From positions 1 through 50,660 of the forward strand of contig CALRGY010000005.1 in NCBI GenBank assembly GCA_943358395.1: a DNA stretch of 50,660 bases, read 5' to 3'. This DNA is from Candidatus Uhrbacteria bacterium. Lineage in GTDB: Bacteria; Patescibacteriota; Patescibacteriia; UBA9934. Position 1 is the stretch's first letter; every line of letters starts with the position of its first letter. The notes below the pieces were generated by a model. That model was not told where the DNA came from. It worked only from the letters and a program-made list of their open reading frames with translations, and made no database searches. Shown here one piece after another: positions 8,409-48,921 of the stretch. The translations under genes were made by a program, and so were the position numbers.

Positions 8409-8533
8409 TCTCGGCTGCAGCCCCCTCCTAACTCCCCGCCCCCTCCGACTCCCCCATAAATGGGGGAGAGAAGCGAGGGGATGAATCTTTATCGTGAACT
8501 CCCCTCCATTTATGGAGGGGTAAGGGGGAGGAG
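8409..8533 (+). repeat. Family-1 C/G-rich palindromic repeat with two hairpins (CTCCCCCATAAATGGGGGAG and CCCCTCCATTTATGGAGGGG)
   Basis: Near-complete inverted copy at about 46546-46672. Confidence 0.85.
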
Positions 8534-8639
8534 AGGGAACGTGAAGTGAGTCTTTTGAAGTGGTCGTGAGTCCGGACGTGAACCCTCCCTCTGCCACCTG
8601 TCCCTCGAAGCTCGAAGAGCGAAGTGGGAAGGGGGAGTC

Positions 8640-8765
8640 GGAGGGGGTCGCGTATGGGAAGTGAGGTGAGTCTTTTGAATGGGTTGTGAATCGGAGGGGA
8701 CTGCGACCGGGAGGGTGTGCTTTTCCAAAGAGGCTTCTTGCTAATGCGAATCATTCGCAAGAAGA
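8640..8765 (+). repeat. Family-1 associated module (gagtcttttgaatgggttgtgaatcgg...ctgcgaccgggagggtgtg...gctaatgc)
   Basis: Similar to 23905-24010. Confidence 0.7.
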
Positions 8766-9048: not shown

Positions 9049-9126
9049 CACCCCCTCCCTCCTTCGCTGGATTACCAGCTTCGGAGGGCAAGCCTACTCC
9101 CCCGGATTCCCTCTCCATCGCGTTCG
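9049..9126 (+). repeat. Family-1 variant: 78-bp repeat, twin of the segment inside the ABC-F gene at 34561-34638
   Basis: About 76/78 identical by eye, opposite orientation. Confidence 0.88.
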
Positions 9127-23773: not shown

Positions 23774-24420
23774 TGGAAGTGAGAGATGAGAAGGCGAAGT
23801 GAGTCTTGGAGTGGGTTGGGAGGGTAGGGACGAGAATCGGAGTAGCCAGATCCTGAGGCTTCGCCGAAGGATCTCGAAGGAGACTACAGATAAACGGTCG
23901 GAGGGCATGAGGGATGGGAGTCTTTGAATGGGTTGTGAATCGGATGGGCTGCGACCGGGAGGGTGTGTATTTTGAAAAGGGGGGTCCTGCTAATGCAACT
24001 GAGTTGCATGTAGAGGATGGGGTCATGATGGGACTTCGCTCAGAGTCGAGTATTACCATCGTCGATGAGAGAGATTTTGATTGAGGTAATCGCCTTCAGG
24101 TTTCATCGATTCTTTCGCGTACGATTGATTGAGGTGATTGGTTTTCGAGGTCGGAATCTGAGTATGGGCTTTTCAAATCACGACCCCCTCCGACTCCCGC
24201 CCCCTCCTAACTCCCCCATAAATGGGGGAGAGTTCGCGTCCGGACTCACAACCCATTCAAAGACTCACATCTCACGCTCCGAATCGTTTACCTGTTCGCC
24301 TCTTTGAGGTCCTTCGGCGGAGCCTCAGGATCTGGGCTGCTACTCCGATTCCCGTCCCCTTCACAACCCTTTCCAAAGACTCACATCACGTTCACGTCCC
24401 GTCTGGTACACTTCTCTCAA
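23774..24420. repeat. Repeat island of nested inverted copies of Family-1 modules
   Basis: 23815-23885 is inverted at 24303-24375; 23905-23945 inverted at 24238-24290; 24211-24230 is the exact CTCCCCCATAAATGGGGGAG core. Confidence 0.8.
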
Positions 24421-32408: not shown

Positions 32409-32482
32409 CCTCCACCCCCTCCGACTCCCCCTTACCGTTCACTCCCCCCTCTAATCCCCCCATAAATGGGGGGAAGGTCACG
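32409..32482 (+). repeat. Family-1 palindromic repeat
   Basis: CCACCCCCTCCGACTCCCCC...CCCCCCATAAATGGGGGG. Confidence 0.8.
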
Positions 32483-32496
32483 ATCGAGATTCATCA

Positions 32497-33039
32497 TCAT
32501 CGAATCTCGATCACGACATATCTCGTCACTCTTTCCCCAACTGTCACGTCCACTATTTCACCAACCTTTGCGCCAAGAAGCGCCTTTCCAATGGGGGAGT
32601 GATGAGAGATTCTTCCCTTCATGGGATTACTTTCTTGTGAGCCGAGAATTTCGTACGTGTATTGAGGCGAACCCTCCCCCTGCAAAGGGGGAGTACGGAG
32701 GGGGTCGTGCACTTGTACCGTCACAATCGAACCAATACGCACTCTTGTCGACGTGGCATCGTGCACAATCGGGATTGCGTGATTGATTTTCTCAGTCAGG
32801 GAAAGAATTCTTCCGTTGATACGTCGAAGATTCTGCTTTGCCCATTGATAGCCAGCGTTCTCCGAGAAGTCTCCCATTTCGCCAGTACGAATCACTTCTG
32901 CTGCCGCAACGCCACGTTCAGTATCGATGAGCCGTTGCAACTCCCGTTTCATTGCCTCAATCTTTTCCGGCGTAAAATGCAAATCCGGCTCTTCCGTTTG
33001 TTGGCGCTCAAGTTCTTTTTTTCTGGTTGGAAGCCGCAT
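32497..33039 (-). CDS. greA: Transcription elongation factor GreA with in-frame repeat-encoded insertion
   Basis: TGEMGDFSENAGYQWAKQ; SPIGKALLGAKVGEIVDV; extra DPLRTPPLQGEGS. Confidence 0.92.
   Translation of the reverse strand: MRLPTRKKELERQQTEEPDLHFTPEKIEAMKRELQRLIDTERGVAAAEVIRTGEMGDFSENAGYQWAKQNLRRINGRILSLTEKINHAIPIVHDATSTRVRIGSIVTVQVHDPLRTPPLQGEGSPQYTYEILGSQESNPMKGRISHHSPIGKALLGAKVGEIVDVTVGERVTRYVVIEIR
32669..32705. repeat. Family-1 repeat inside greA
   Basis: 35/37 identical by eye to intergenic 39355-39391. Confidence 0.9.
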
Positions 33040-33080: not shown

Positions 33081-34892
33081 ATGTCTCGACCATTACTTGA
33101 TGTAAAAGGATTACGAAAAGCATACGGCAAACAAGTGGTTTGCGACGATATTGGATTTGTGGTGGGTGATGGGGAGCATATTGCGTTGATCGGCAGAAAC
33201 GGCGCGGGGAAGTCGACGCTCTTAAATATGCTCATGGGCATCGAGGAGCCCGATGCTGGGGCAGTTCAATTGATGCCCTGGACGCGGCTTGGCATGGTGG
33301 CGCAGCACGATATTCTTCCCGGCGATGTAACCACTGAAGAATATTGTTCATCGATGAGTGGAAAGCCAACATGGGATGTACGAAAACTCGCGGCGAAATT
33401 TGGGCTTCATGGCGAGCACGTGGAAAAGCCGCCTACCGCACTTTCTGGCGGGTACCAAATGCGTGTGAAGATTATTGCGATGTTGCTGTGTGACCCAAAT
33501 CTTCTTTTGCTCGATGAGCCGGTGAACTATCTTGATCTTCCGACGCTCTTGTTGCTCGAACGCTTCCTCGCTGAGTACGACGGCAGCTTCATCATGACGG
33601 CGCACGATCGTGAGTTTCTGCAAAACACGTGTACGTCAACATTCGAGATTGAACGCGCGGAGCTCACGCAATACCCAGGATCGGTGGAAGACTATCTTGT
33701 GTGGAAGGCAGAGCAACTCGAGTTTTTGCGAAAGAATAATAAGCGTGTGGCACGGGAAATGGCGCATCATCAAGAGTTTGTGAATCGGTTTCAGTACAAA
33801 GCAAGCCAGGCATCGCGGGCGCAAAGCAAAATCAAGCACATTGAAAAGCTTCGCAGATCAATCGTGCAGATTAAAAAAGATTTATCGACCACACGCATCG
33901 TTATCCCCACGCCGGTGATTATTCCCGGGATCGCTGTTCGTGTAGAGAAGCTTGCAATCGGTTACGGCGATACGGTTATCGGATCAAACATTTCGTTTAC
34001 GTTCAATCGAGGTGAAAAGGTCGTCATCGCTGGAGAGAACGGAAAAGGAAAGTCGACGTTGTTGAAAACCATTGCGGGGATTCTTCCGCCAATCGAGGGA
34101 TCGGCAAAATGGTGGCATCGTGCCGACATTGGGTATTACGATCAAAAGACGGATGCCACGTTGGTACCATCGGAAACCGTTGTGCAATATTTGACGAGGC
34201 TTGCGCCGCCAATGGCTTCCGGCGAACGTATTTTGATGATGGCGGGAAACTTCCTGTTCCGTGGTGACGACTTGGAAAAGACGACGAGCGTACTGTCTGG
34301 CGGTGAGCGCGCACGATTGTGCTTAGCGGGAATGTTACTTCATGAGCATAATGTTTTAATTCTCGATGAACCGACGAACCACTTAGACGTTGAAACCGCA
34401 GAATCACTAGCGTCGGCGCTGAAGGAATATGGGGGAACGGTATTGTTCGTTTCTCACGCCCGAACTTTCGTGAATGCCCTTGCAGAACGCATCTACGAAA
34501 TTCGCGGCGGCACCGTGCGTCACTACATCGGTACCTACGAAGAATACGTCGCCGACCTTGCGAACGCGATGGAGAGGGAATGTGGGGGAGTAGGCTTGCC
34601 CTCCGAAGCTGGTAATCCAGCGAAGGAGGGAGGGGGTGGAGACAGTGGAGGTGAATCCCGCGCCATCCGTCGCGCCGAGATCAAAGAAAAGCAGCGCCTT
34701 GCCGATCGCATTGCCGTACACATGGAAAAGCTCGACAAAGAAAAAAGTGGAATTCTCGCCTATTTCTTCGAGAACCCCACAGATTATTCTCCAGAAAAGA
34801 ATCGACGACTCTCCGAACTTGACGACGAGCTTCGCCGCATCGAGCATCAATGGCTGACGGTGTGTGAAGAGATTGAGAAATTAAGGGGATAA
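33081..34892 (+). CDS. ABC-F family ATP-binding protein with in-frame repeat-encoded linker
   Basis: GRNGAGKST, GENGKGKST, two LSGG motifs, C-terminal coiled coil. Confidence 0.92.
   Translation: MSRPLLDVKGLRKAYGKQVVCDDIGFVVGDGEHIALIGRNGAGKSTLLNMLMGIEEPDAGAVQLMPWTRLGMVAQHDILPGDVTTEEYCSSMSGKPTWDVRKLAAKFGLHGEHVEKPPTALSGGYQMRVKIIAMLLCDPNLLLLDEPVNYLDLPTLLLLERFLAEYDGSFIMTAHDREFLQNTCTSTFEIERAELTQYPGSVEDYLVWKAEQLEFLRKNNKRVAREMAHHQEFVNRFQYKASQASRAQSKIKHIEKLRRSIVQIKKDLSTTRIVIPTPVIIPGIAVRVEKLAIGYGDTVIGSNISFTFNRGEKVVIAGENGKGKSTLLKTIAGILPPIEGSAKWWHRADIGYYDQKTDATLVPSETVVQYLTRLAPPMASGERILMMAGNFLFRGDDLEKTTSVLSGGERARLCLAGMLLHEHNVLILDEPTNHLDVETAESLASALKEYGGTVLFVSHARTFVNALAERIYEIRGGTVRHYIGTYEEYVADLANAMERECGGVGLPSEAGNPAKEGGGGDSGGESRAIRRAEIKEKQRLADRIAVHMEKLDKEKSGILAYFFENPTDYSPEKNRRLSELDDELRRIEHQWLTVCEEIEKLRG
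34561..34638 (-). repeat. 78-bp repeat inside the ABC-F gene
   Basis: About 76/78 identical to the reverse complement of 9049-9126. Confidence 0.9.
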
Positions 34893-37344: not shown

Positions 37345-37363
37345 AGTAGGTAGAACTTCCTCC

Positions 37364-37468
37364 TTTGGTCTATTTTCGACTCAGATCATCGGAAACGTCT
37401 TCAACGTACCATGAAGTACGTCTCAGACGATTTCCTCGATCTTCATCGAAACTAGCCGCAAATGAGAA
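37364..37468 (-). repeat. Family-2 foldback element, copy 1
   Basis: Shared with 45033-45190 and 48802-48906. Confidence 0.88.
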
Positions 37469-37537
37469 AGTTCTATAAATGATTAATTTGATGGTGTAAA
37501 GTATGCCTTATTCTTGCTTCATCGTCAAACAAATATG

Positions 37538-39354: not shown

Positions 39355-39391
39355 GAACCCTCCCCCTGCAAAGGGGGAGTTAGGAGGGGGT
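39355..39391 (+). repeat. Family-1 repeat, intergenic twin of the greA insertion
   Basis: GAACCCTCCCCCTGCAAAGGGGGAGTTAGGAGGGGGT. Confidence 0.9.
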
Positions 39392-45032: not shown

Positions 45033-45190
45033 CTCTCATTTTCGACCAGTTTCGATGAAGATCGAGGAAATCGTTTGAGACGTACTTCATGGTACGTTGA
45101 CCCCGCTTCTCGCGAGAGGCGGGGTGAAGACGTTTCCGATGATCTGACCCCGCCGTTCGCGAACAGCGGGGTGAGTCGAAAATGGGCAAA
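45033..45190 (+). repeat. Family-2 foldback element, copy 2, carrying two extra 27-nt segments
   Basis: Extra segments at 45101-45127 and 45148-45174 relative to the other copies. Confidence 0.88.
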
Positions 45191-46545: not shown

Positions 46546-46672
46546 TCTCCCGCCTCCCCCAACCCCTCCATAAATGGAGGGGAGAAACACGGTGATTCAT
46601 CTCCTCGCTACTCTCCCCCATTTATGGGGGAGTCGGAGGGGGCGAGAGTAAAGGGGGGGCTGAAGCCGAGAG
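46546..46672 (-). repeat. Family-1 palindromic repeat, inverted relative to 8409-8533
   Basis: Both hairpins and the intervening gcgagg-gatgaatc segment are conserved. Confidence 0.85.
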
Positions 46673-47346: not shown

Positions 47347-48797
47347 CACCTATGAAAACCTATTCCATCACCACAACCCTTCCATACGTCAACGCTGATC
47401 CGCATATCGGGTTTGCTCTCGAAATTGTGCAGGCAGATATGCTGGCGCGGTATCACCGATCACGGGGATATGATGTGGTTTTTAATACTGGCACCGACGA
47501 GCACGGGCAAAAGATTTATCAAAAGGCGATCGAAGCAGGAGTGGATCCAAAAATGTATTGCGACGAATACGCAGCAAAGTTCGACGGGCTCAAGGCGGCG
47601 CTCAACCTTTCGTACACTCACTTCATCCGTACTACCGATGAACATCACATCATCGCCGCACAAGAATTTTGGAACAGGTGCAATGCAAACGGTGATATTT
47701 ATAAAAAGCAGTACTCGGTAAAATATTGCGTTGGCTGTGAGCTGGAAAAGACCGATTCTGAATTGGTCGATGGGAAATGCCCAGATCATCCGAATCGTGA
47801 ACTTGATGCTATTGAGGAAGAGAATTATTTCTTCGCGTTTTCGAAGTATCAGCAAAAGCTGCTCGATCTGTACCGTGATCGCCCAGATTTCGTGATGCCT
47901 TCAGCACGGATGAATGAGATTCGGACGTTTGTGGAAGGCGGGTTGAACGATTTTAGTATTTCTCGCTTGAAATCGAAAATGCCCTGGGGCGTGCCGGTTC
48001 CGAATGATTCAGAACAGGTGATGTATGTGTGGTTCGATGCATTGGTGAACTATATTTCTACTCTCGGCTGGCCTCAGAGTGGATCGACCTTCGATTCTGC
48101 GTGGCCAAGCGTGCAGGTTGCCGGAAAAGACAATCTTCGTCAGCAAACGGCAATGTGGCAAGCGATGCTCATGTCTGCAAATATTGAATCATCGAAGCAA
48201 GTGTTCATTCATGGATACATTACGGCGGAAGGGCAGAAGATGAGTAAATCCGTTGGAAACGTGATTAATCCGTACGATCTCGTTGCTGAATACGGCACCG
48301 ATGCTACTCGCCTGTATCTTTTGGGCGGCATGCCTTCATGGCAAGACGGCGATTATTCCAAGGAACAATTCGAAATTCTTTTTGCCACAAAATTAGCCAA
48401 CGGGCTTGGAAATTTGGTGAGTCGTGTAGCAGCAATGGCAGCGAAGAGTTTTCCGGAGGGATTGGATACGTCCGATGAGTCCTATTCGACCTATAACGAA
48501 AGGCTCAACACAGAGATTCGTGCCTACGATTTTCGCGCCTACGTGGATACGGTGTGGTCTATGGTAGACGTAGCGAATGAGAAGATTGCAAAAGAGGAGC
48601 CGTTCAAGTTGGTAAAGATCGATCGTGATGCGGCGAAGAAATCGCTGTCAGAGCTTGCGGCGATGATTCGATGGATTGGTCATGCGTTGGTTCCGGTGAT
48701 TCCTGTAACAGCTGCCGAAATCCTCCGCCGTTACGAAAGTGATATTCTTGTAGCAGGGGAGCCGTTGTTCCCCAGACGAGATCGACGAGTAGAATAG
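47343..48797 (+). CDS. metG: Methionyl-tRNA synthetase (start may be 47352)
   Basis: TTLPYVNADPHIGFALE; GTDEHGQKI; KMSKSVGNVI. Confidence 0.96.
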   Translation: MTPMKTYSITTTLPYVNADPHIGFALEIVQADMLARYHRSRGYDVVFNTGTDEHGQKIYQKAIEAGVDPKMYCDEYAAKFDGLKAALNLSYTHFIRTTDEHHIIAAQEFWNRCNANGDIYKKQYSVKYCVGCELEKTDSELVDGKCPDHPNRELDAIEEENYFFAFSKYQQKLLDLYRDRPDFVMPSARMNEIRTFVEGGLNDFSISRLKSKMPWGVPVPNDSEQVMYVWFDALVNYISTLGWPQSGSTFDSAWPSVQVAGKDNLRQQTAMWQAMLMSANIESSKQVFIHGYITAEGQKMSKSVGNVINPYDLVAEYGTDATRLYLLGGMPSWQDGDYSKEQFEILFATKLANGLGNLVSRVAAMAAKSFPEGLDTSDESYSTYNERLNTEIRAYDFRAYVDTVWSMVDVANEKIAKEEPFKLVKIDRDAAKKSLSELAAMIRWIGHALVPVIPVTAAEILRRYESDILVAGEPLFPRRDRRVE

Positions 48798-48801
48798 GAC
48801 T

Positions 48802-48906
48802 TTCTCATTTGAGGCTAGTTTCGATGAAGATCAAGGAAATCTTCCGAAACGTACTTCATGGTACGATGAGGAAGTTTCCGATGATCTGAGTCGAAAATAG
48901 ACCAAA
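48802..48906 (+). repeat. Family-2 foldback element, copy 3
   Basis: Terminal CTCATTTG/CAAATGAG; ends about 15 nt before the cvpA start. Confidence 0.88.
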
Positions 48907-48921
48907 TGAGCAAGGACTACT

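Follow-up and report, generated by a model that had tools for sequence, protein, structure and literature searches.

A short hairpin repeat has multiplied in the genome of a Candidatus Uhrbacteria species (Patescibacteria), where it lies in frame within at least 16 protein-coding genes. Its copy number, its hairpin-forming sequence, its occupancy of both species-specific and inherited sites, and its recurrent use of the same loops are established. We consider it likely (probability about 0.85) that the repeats are a lineage-specific, non-autonomous, REP/MITE-like hairpin family that proliferated in this species and is tolerated in surface loops. The genome is a 912-kb metagenome-assembled genome (MAG), 97.6% complete, of an uncultured freshwater bacterium; the window is the 50,660-nt stretch of it analysed here (contig CALRGY010000005.1, positions 1 to 50,660), and plain coordinates refer to that window.

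The greA gene (32497..33039, minus strand) encodes a 180-aa protein, recognised by its GreA_GreB N and C domains and by orthologue alignment, that carries the in-frame hairpin insert DPLRTPPLQGEGS. The responsible repeat, a type A copy at 32669..32705 (minus strand), reads ACCCCCTCCGTACTCCCCCTTTGCAGGGGGAGGGTTC on the coding strand and is predicted to yield the insert peptides VHDPLR and TPPLQGEGSPQYTYEILGSQE. GreA aligns without the insert in four genomes of the same genus (~82-85% identical, all from Candidatus Uhrbacteria MAGs) and in ~20 members of the family and order; among the genomes compared, the insert is unique to this species. DNA alignment gives a net gain of 10 codons relative to three congeners and 12 relative to the fourth, from which we infer that a short native loop was replaced or overlaid by the hairpin. 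In the AlphaFold2 model, the insert is predicted to form the turn that links two strands (105-111 and 126-132) in the C-terminal domain, with low confidence for the loop; the model matches GreA/GreB structures with high Foldseek probability and low TM-scores (~0.4). The preliminary description of this locus, made from sequence alone, had proposed a palindromic repeat in frame within greA, which holds, the extent being larger than it reported (18 in-frame copies in 16 genes). Its extra residues in GreA also hold, with their number, 13, slightly overstated against the net +10/+12. The label of an "essential-type" gene is uncertain for the insert-bearing greA, because a second Gre-family gene is present (32% identity; G000:C1:17465-17884 in our genome coordinates).

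The greA 37-mer has a counterpart in the window at 39355..39391 (minus strand), an intergenic type A repeat found by sequence match and lying 14 nt past the end of an ORF (39341). The two copies differ at two positions, confirming the 35/37 match first reported, and no such pair is expected in shuffled sequence. Genome-wide, the 34-nt core has 16 copies (at most 3 mismatches, most exact), with none in the reversed control. The wider hairpin CTCCCC-N8-GGGGAG occurs in 44 exact copies, again with none in the reversed control; allowing one mismatch raises these counts to 48 and 3. When aligned with their flanks, 45 copies share one architecture, which can be written as CCCCCTCC, a variable joint of 2-3 nt (GA, TTA, TAA or AA), CTCCCCC-loop-GGGGGAG, and nGTTC. 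The core measures ~33-37 nt, and composites reach ~70 nt. Type A has the loop TTTGCA or TTGGCA, and type B has ATAAAT; type B frequently belongs to longer composites between genes that include another hairpin around CCATTTATGG. Within the window, type B hairpins were found by hairpin search and flank alignment in composite intergenic repeat blocks at 8449..8468 (CTCCCCCATAAATGGGGGAG) and 24211..24230; another (46613..46632) lies directly upstream of an rsmI-like ORF, named by sequence inspection. A related intergenic palindrome block of family D1, CCCCCCATAAATGGGGGG, lies downstream of greA (32428..32482); no strand was assigned to it or to the type B hairpins. Folded as RNA, the intergenic copy at 39355 (z -2.5) and type B (z -3.0) beat shuffles; the greA copy alone does no better than shuffles (z -0.7), and we therefore argue for no RNA function there.

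Eighteen of the 45 copies read in context are in frame, distributed over 16 genes, 15 of which have a Pfam match. Two genes are occupied at two sites each, namely rsmA and a Peptidase_G2-like 767-aa ORF. Single copies are found in greA, mutY, rpe, an O-antigen ligase gene, miaA, smc, a lysS/epmA-like gene, uvrC, dnaX, truB, a family-2 glycosyltransferase gene, radA, a DUF559 gene, and a 206-aa ORF that lacks a Pfam match. Type A is stop-free in five of its six frames with the TTA joint and in all six with the GA joint, and is read in several of them (TPPLQGEG, LPLQRGS, LPLCRGR, PPPAKGES and DSPLAGGE); the encoded insert peptides are rich in Pro, Gly and Ser. Gene calls are our own, based on open frames, Pfam matches and orthologues. 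Genic status required an open frame across the copy, such that a gene with its frame broken would be scored as intergenic. The preliminary description had proposed two checks, that relatives lack the GreA residues (the four congeners and ~20 family and order genomes above) and that other genes carry the repeat. Both were run and both were met; the repeat is found elsewhere in the genome, and the outcomes that would have refuted the proposal were not seen.

Comparison with congener orthologues reveals species-specific, inherited and independently re-inserted copies: (i) Congener orthologues of greA, mutY, rsmA (both sites), uvrC, miaA, the lysS-like gene, and the ABC-F gene treated below either lack the insert or differ at its site. 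(ii) Inserts are common to this genome and one congener in truB (G003), smc (G004) and the DUF559 gene (G002), and look inherited because the congeners share them. (iii) G003 has another hairpin insert in its radA loop, and G002 has an independent one in its lysS-like loop; thus the same permissive loops have been hit repeatedly. In the lysS-like gene of this genome, a 23-codon insert, predicted to contribute ELSPIYGGVR to the product, lies flush against the empty site of the other three congeners. Single-hairpin cases show net insert lengths of +7 to +12 codons, and this variation means that an insertion does not always just add sequence; in several loops divergence is too great for the insert ends to be fixed. 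Inspection of translated sequences located further in-frame hairpins of the congeners in PheT, a glycosyltransferase, a cysteine desulfurase, UvrC (at another site) and ValRS.

These sites bear on two rival explanations. Hypervariable low-complexity loops might converge on C/G-rich hairpins through slippage, without any movement of a repeat; in support, loops such as those of mutY and radA vary and look repetitive in several congeners. The idea is already contradicted by the 16 near-identical 34-nt cores across unrelated genes and spacers, and by the lysS-like insert sitting flush in a conserved site, and we regard it as very unlikely. There is similarly little to recommend an assembly or binning artefact in which the repeat was wrongly joined into genes. 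Every genome compared is indeed a fragmented metagenome assembly, but the unit (33-37 nt, composites to ~70 nt) is below typical read length, frames are preserved, and separate congener MAGs share the truB, smc and DUF559 inserts.

CTCCCC-N8-GGGGAG occurs 44 times in this genome; each congener has 4-10 copies, and the other family members have 0-24. The 34-nt core was found in 3 of 78 relatives (16 copies in this genome, three in G001, one in G033), and among 380 genomes across the phylum it was limited to this genome. This distribution speaks against the hairpins being selected functional sites (for protein binding, DNA uptake or mRNA stability), with the genic copies a by-product of having many sites in a compact genome. 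Such a role would be in keeping with the strongly conserved arms, the intergenic copies in composite blocks, and the strong RNA hairpin of type B. It is unlikely in view of the excess of copies over congeners, the lack of the 34-mer in nearly all relatives, and the hits to unrelated genes at species-specific positions.

The family member with 24 copies, G019, belongs to a sister genus, and 22-23 of these copies are inside open frames. At least 15 are in Pfam-identified genes, the hosts being TatD, SOD, Ndh-like, M50 peptidase, CapA-like, copper ATPase, ABC-F, PolA, PPIase, HolA, ScpA, FtsK, UvrD/PD-DEXK nuclease, redoxin and LysRS. The inserts in sod, ndh, abcF, holA and a recB-like gene are missing in its own congeners; for rseP, polA and one scpA, the congeners have either the same insert or a variant in its place. 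Two of the four open frames account for 21 of the 23 genic copies (binomial p ~7e-5); the counts were read from translations, with an equal chance assumed for each open frame and copies shared by descent kept. Selection for more hydrophilic peptides is one possible account of this bias. Two further observations may be recorded. The same loop of the O-antigen ligase has hairpins in different frames in this genome and in G019, apparently through independent insertions, and one short G019 ORF appears to contain the same insert twice, once fresh (APSNSPIAGGE) and once decayed (APSNSQLARGNGTDAIAGGE).

Elements in G019 often begin with GTAA, and some copies have recurring GTAA-like flanks on either side. 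We considered these flanks as a target duplication, and the case is not firm; the 3' flank of the ABC-F copy aligns with native sequence. Translational bypassing is known from mitochondrial byp elements, and ribosomes might likewise skip the hairpins, or the RNA might be processed, to give a protein of normal length. The presence of hairpins in housekeeping genes and the GTAA starts could be cited in favour. All counted genic copies are stop-free and in frame, which skipping would not need; the argument is partly circular, as open frames defined the genic copies, and there are no protein data. We nonetheless hold bypassing or processing to be very improbable.

A second palindrome family, CCTCCGAAGCTGGTAATCCAGCGAAGGAGG, is unrelated to the CTCCCCC hairpin and has seven copies in this genome and one in a congener. 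It is in frame in an O-antigen ligase gene, a glycosyltransferase gene, and the ABC-F ATPase gene adjoining greA (33081..34892, plus strand), where it lies at 34600..34629 (plus strand) and is read as GLPSEAGNPAKEGGG; congeners have this gene without the insert. The other window copy is at 9058..9087 (minus strand), and the segments 34561-34638 and 9049-9126 are inverted copies of the family with 97% identity. Two other kinds of intergenic repeat were noted in the window: a family of 76-127 nt at ~90% identity, unrelated to the hairpins (37350-37476, 45034-45147 and 48794-48920), and long mosaics of CAACCCATTCAAAGACTC, type B and related hairpins, and CTTCGCCGAAG-like palindromes (8420-8730 and 23840-24400).

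The preliminary description called the repeat "mobile or proliferating". Proliferation is supported by copy number; mobility is an inference from copy number together with presence and absence at orthologous sites, no mobilising enzyme having been found. Searches for a Y1/RAYT transposase (PF01797) found none in this assembly, with a small chance, given its completeness, that a gene was missed; all four congeners have Y1 genes. Mobilisation by a RAYT was rejected, since no Y1 gene was found in this assembly despite the highest copy number and the congener Y1 genes are not flanked by these hairpins. Some congener Y1 transposases are flanked by inverted repeats resembling GGGTCAGGTC...GACCTGACCCC. 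The 34-nt core had no exact match in viral contigs, and none in plasmid collections. The lysS-like gene, which offers the only clean empty site, shows no visible target duplication, and the other loops are too diverged to tell.

The favoured reading, a proliferating non-autonomous hairpin family, can be put as a sequence of steps, for which there are no expression or proteomic data. The hairpin would be mobile, or would be copied by a mechanism not identified; an HUH-type enzyme that was later lost may have moved it, a kind of movement without target duplication, or it may have been copied in replication or repair. Copies landing in surface loops would survive, the unit being nearly stop-free, ~11-12 codons long, and encoding flexible Pro/Gly/Ser-rich peptides, and copies that break a frame or a fold would be purged. 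The surviving insert would be translated and roughly neutral for the host protein; translation and near-neutrality, like mobility, are inferred. A bolder reading is that the whole family harbours coding-adapted selfish hairpins. The stop-poor unit of ~12 codons would spread mainly within genes, with no RAYT resident in the genome that has most copies; it would repeatedly re-colonise permissive loops and so keep supplying reduced genomes with new protein segments. On balance we lean slightly against this extension.

The high density of repeats in a member of the Patescibacteria, with close relatives offering filled and empty sites, makes the tolerance of proteins for repeated in-frame insertion testable, and likewise the questions of which agent copies such small hairpins when no RAYT is present and whether streamlined genomes acquire new protein segments in this way. 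Annotators should be aware that unusual Pro/Gly-rich inserts in this lineage derive from repeats. We found no description of such repeats in Patescibacteria or candidate phyla in the open-licence PMC literature searched, and to that extent the suggestion that they are undescribed in the lineage stands.

Protein-coding palindromes were once called unique to Rickettsia (title of Ogata 2002), a notion later extended to some REPs. The Rickettsia palindromic elements (RPEs) are ~150 bp long and in frame, with nearly half of them genic in R. conorii (PMC10969869, summarising Ogata et al. 2000, 2002). The analogy with RPEs drawn in the preliminary description holds for behaviour: in both systems palindromes are dispersed in frame in unrelated protein genes and in spacers, the genic share is large, the proteins tolerate the inserts, and orthologues in relatives lack them (here greA, mutY, rsmA, uvrC, miaA, the lysS-like gene and ABC-F). 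It fails for length and frame use, as the Uhrbacteria hairpin has 33-37 nt and is read in several frames and peptides (mostly two frames in G019), whereas each RPE family has a conserved peptide; the hosts also differ, being Patescibacteria rather than Rickettsia. With REPs the hairpins share a size of 20-40 bp, species-restricted expansion, and in-frame insertion into the genes for repair proteins, TruB and tRNA synthetases, targets that intragenic CGTC- and GTAG-tagged REPs favour (Di Nocera et al. 2013, PMC3733652). This match of host-gene classes (nucleotide excision repair, TruB, tRNA synthetases) with REPs of unrelated bacteria (PMC3733652) is a convergence worth explaining. CGTC REPs have no known transposase (PMC3733652), and the Uhrbacteria hairpin is also without a dedicated transposase nearby. 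The CGTC REP consensus comprises an unpaired CGTC/TGTC/CCTC tag, an 8-9 bp stem starting from A/T pairs, a loop of 4-5 nt, and a CCA tail (PMC3733652). The Uhrbacteria copies do not meet it, having CCCCCTCCnnA and then a CTCCCCC stem with no A/T start, a loop of 6 (or 4) nt, and GGTTC or AGTTC in place of CCA. They differ from GTAG REPs and REPINs in having no GTAG tag beside the stem, and no RAYT was found in the genome. Like MITEs and REPINs they are short, non-autonomous, hairpin-forming, and proliferating in one lineage; they show no recognised terminal inverted repeats of a resident IS, and a target duplication is not visible where the empty site is clean, the other loops being too diverged to judge. 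Neither the RPE criteria (length, a single frame) nor those of the REP superfamilies (tag, stem, tail) are fulfilled, and we therefore place the Uhrbacteria hairpins in none of these groups and treat them as a new form of protein-coding palindrome.
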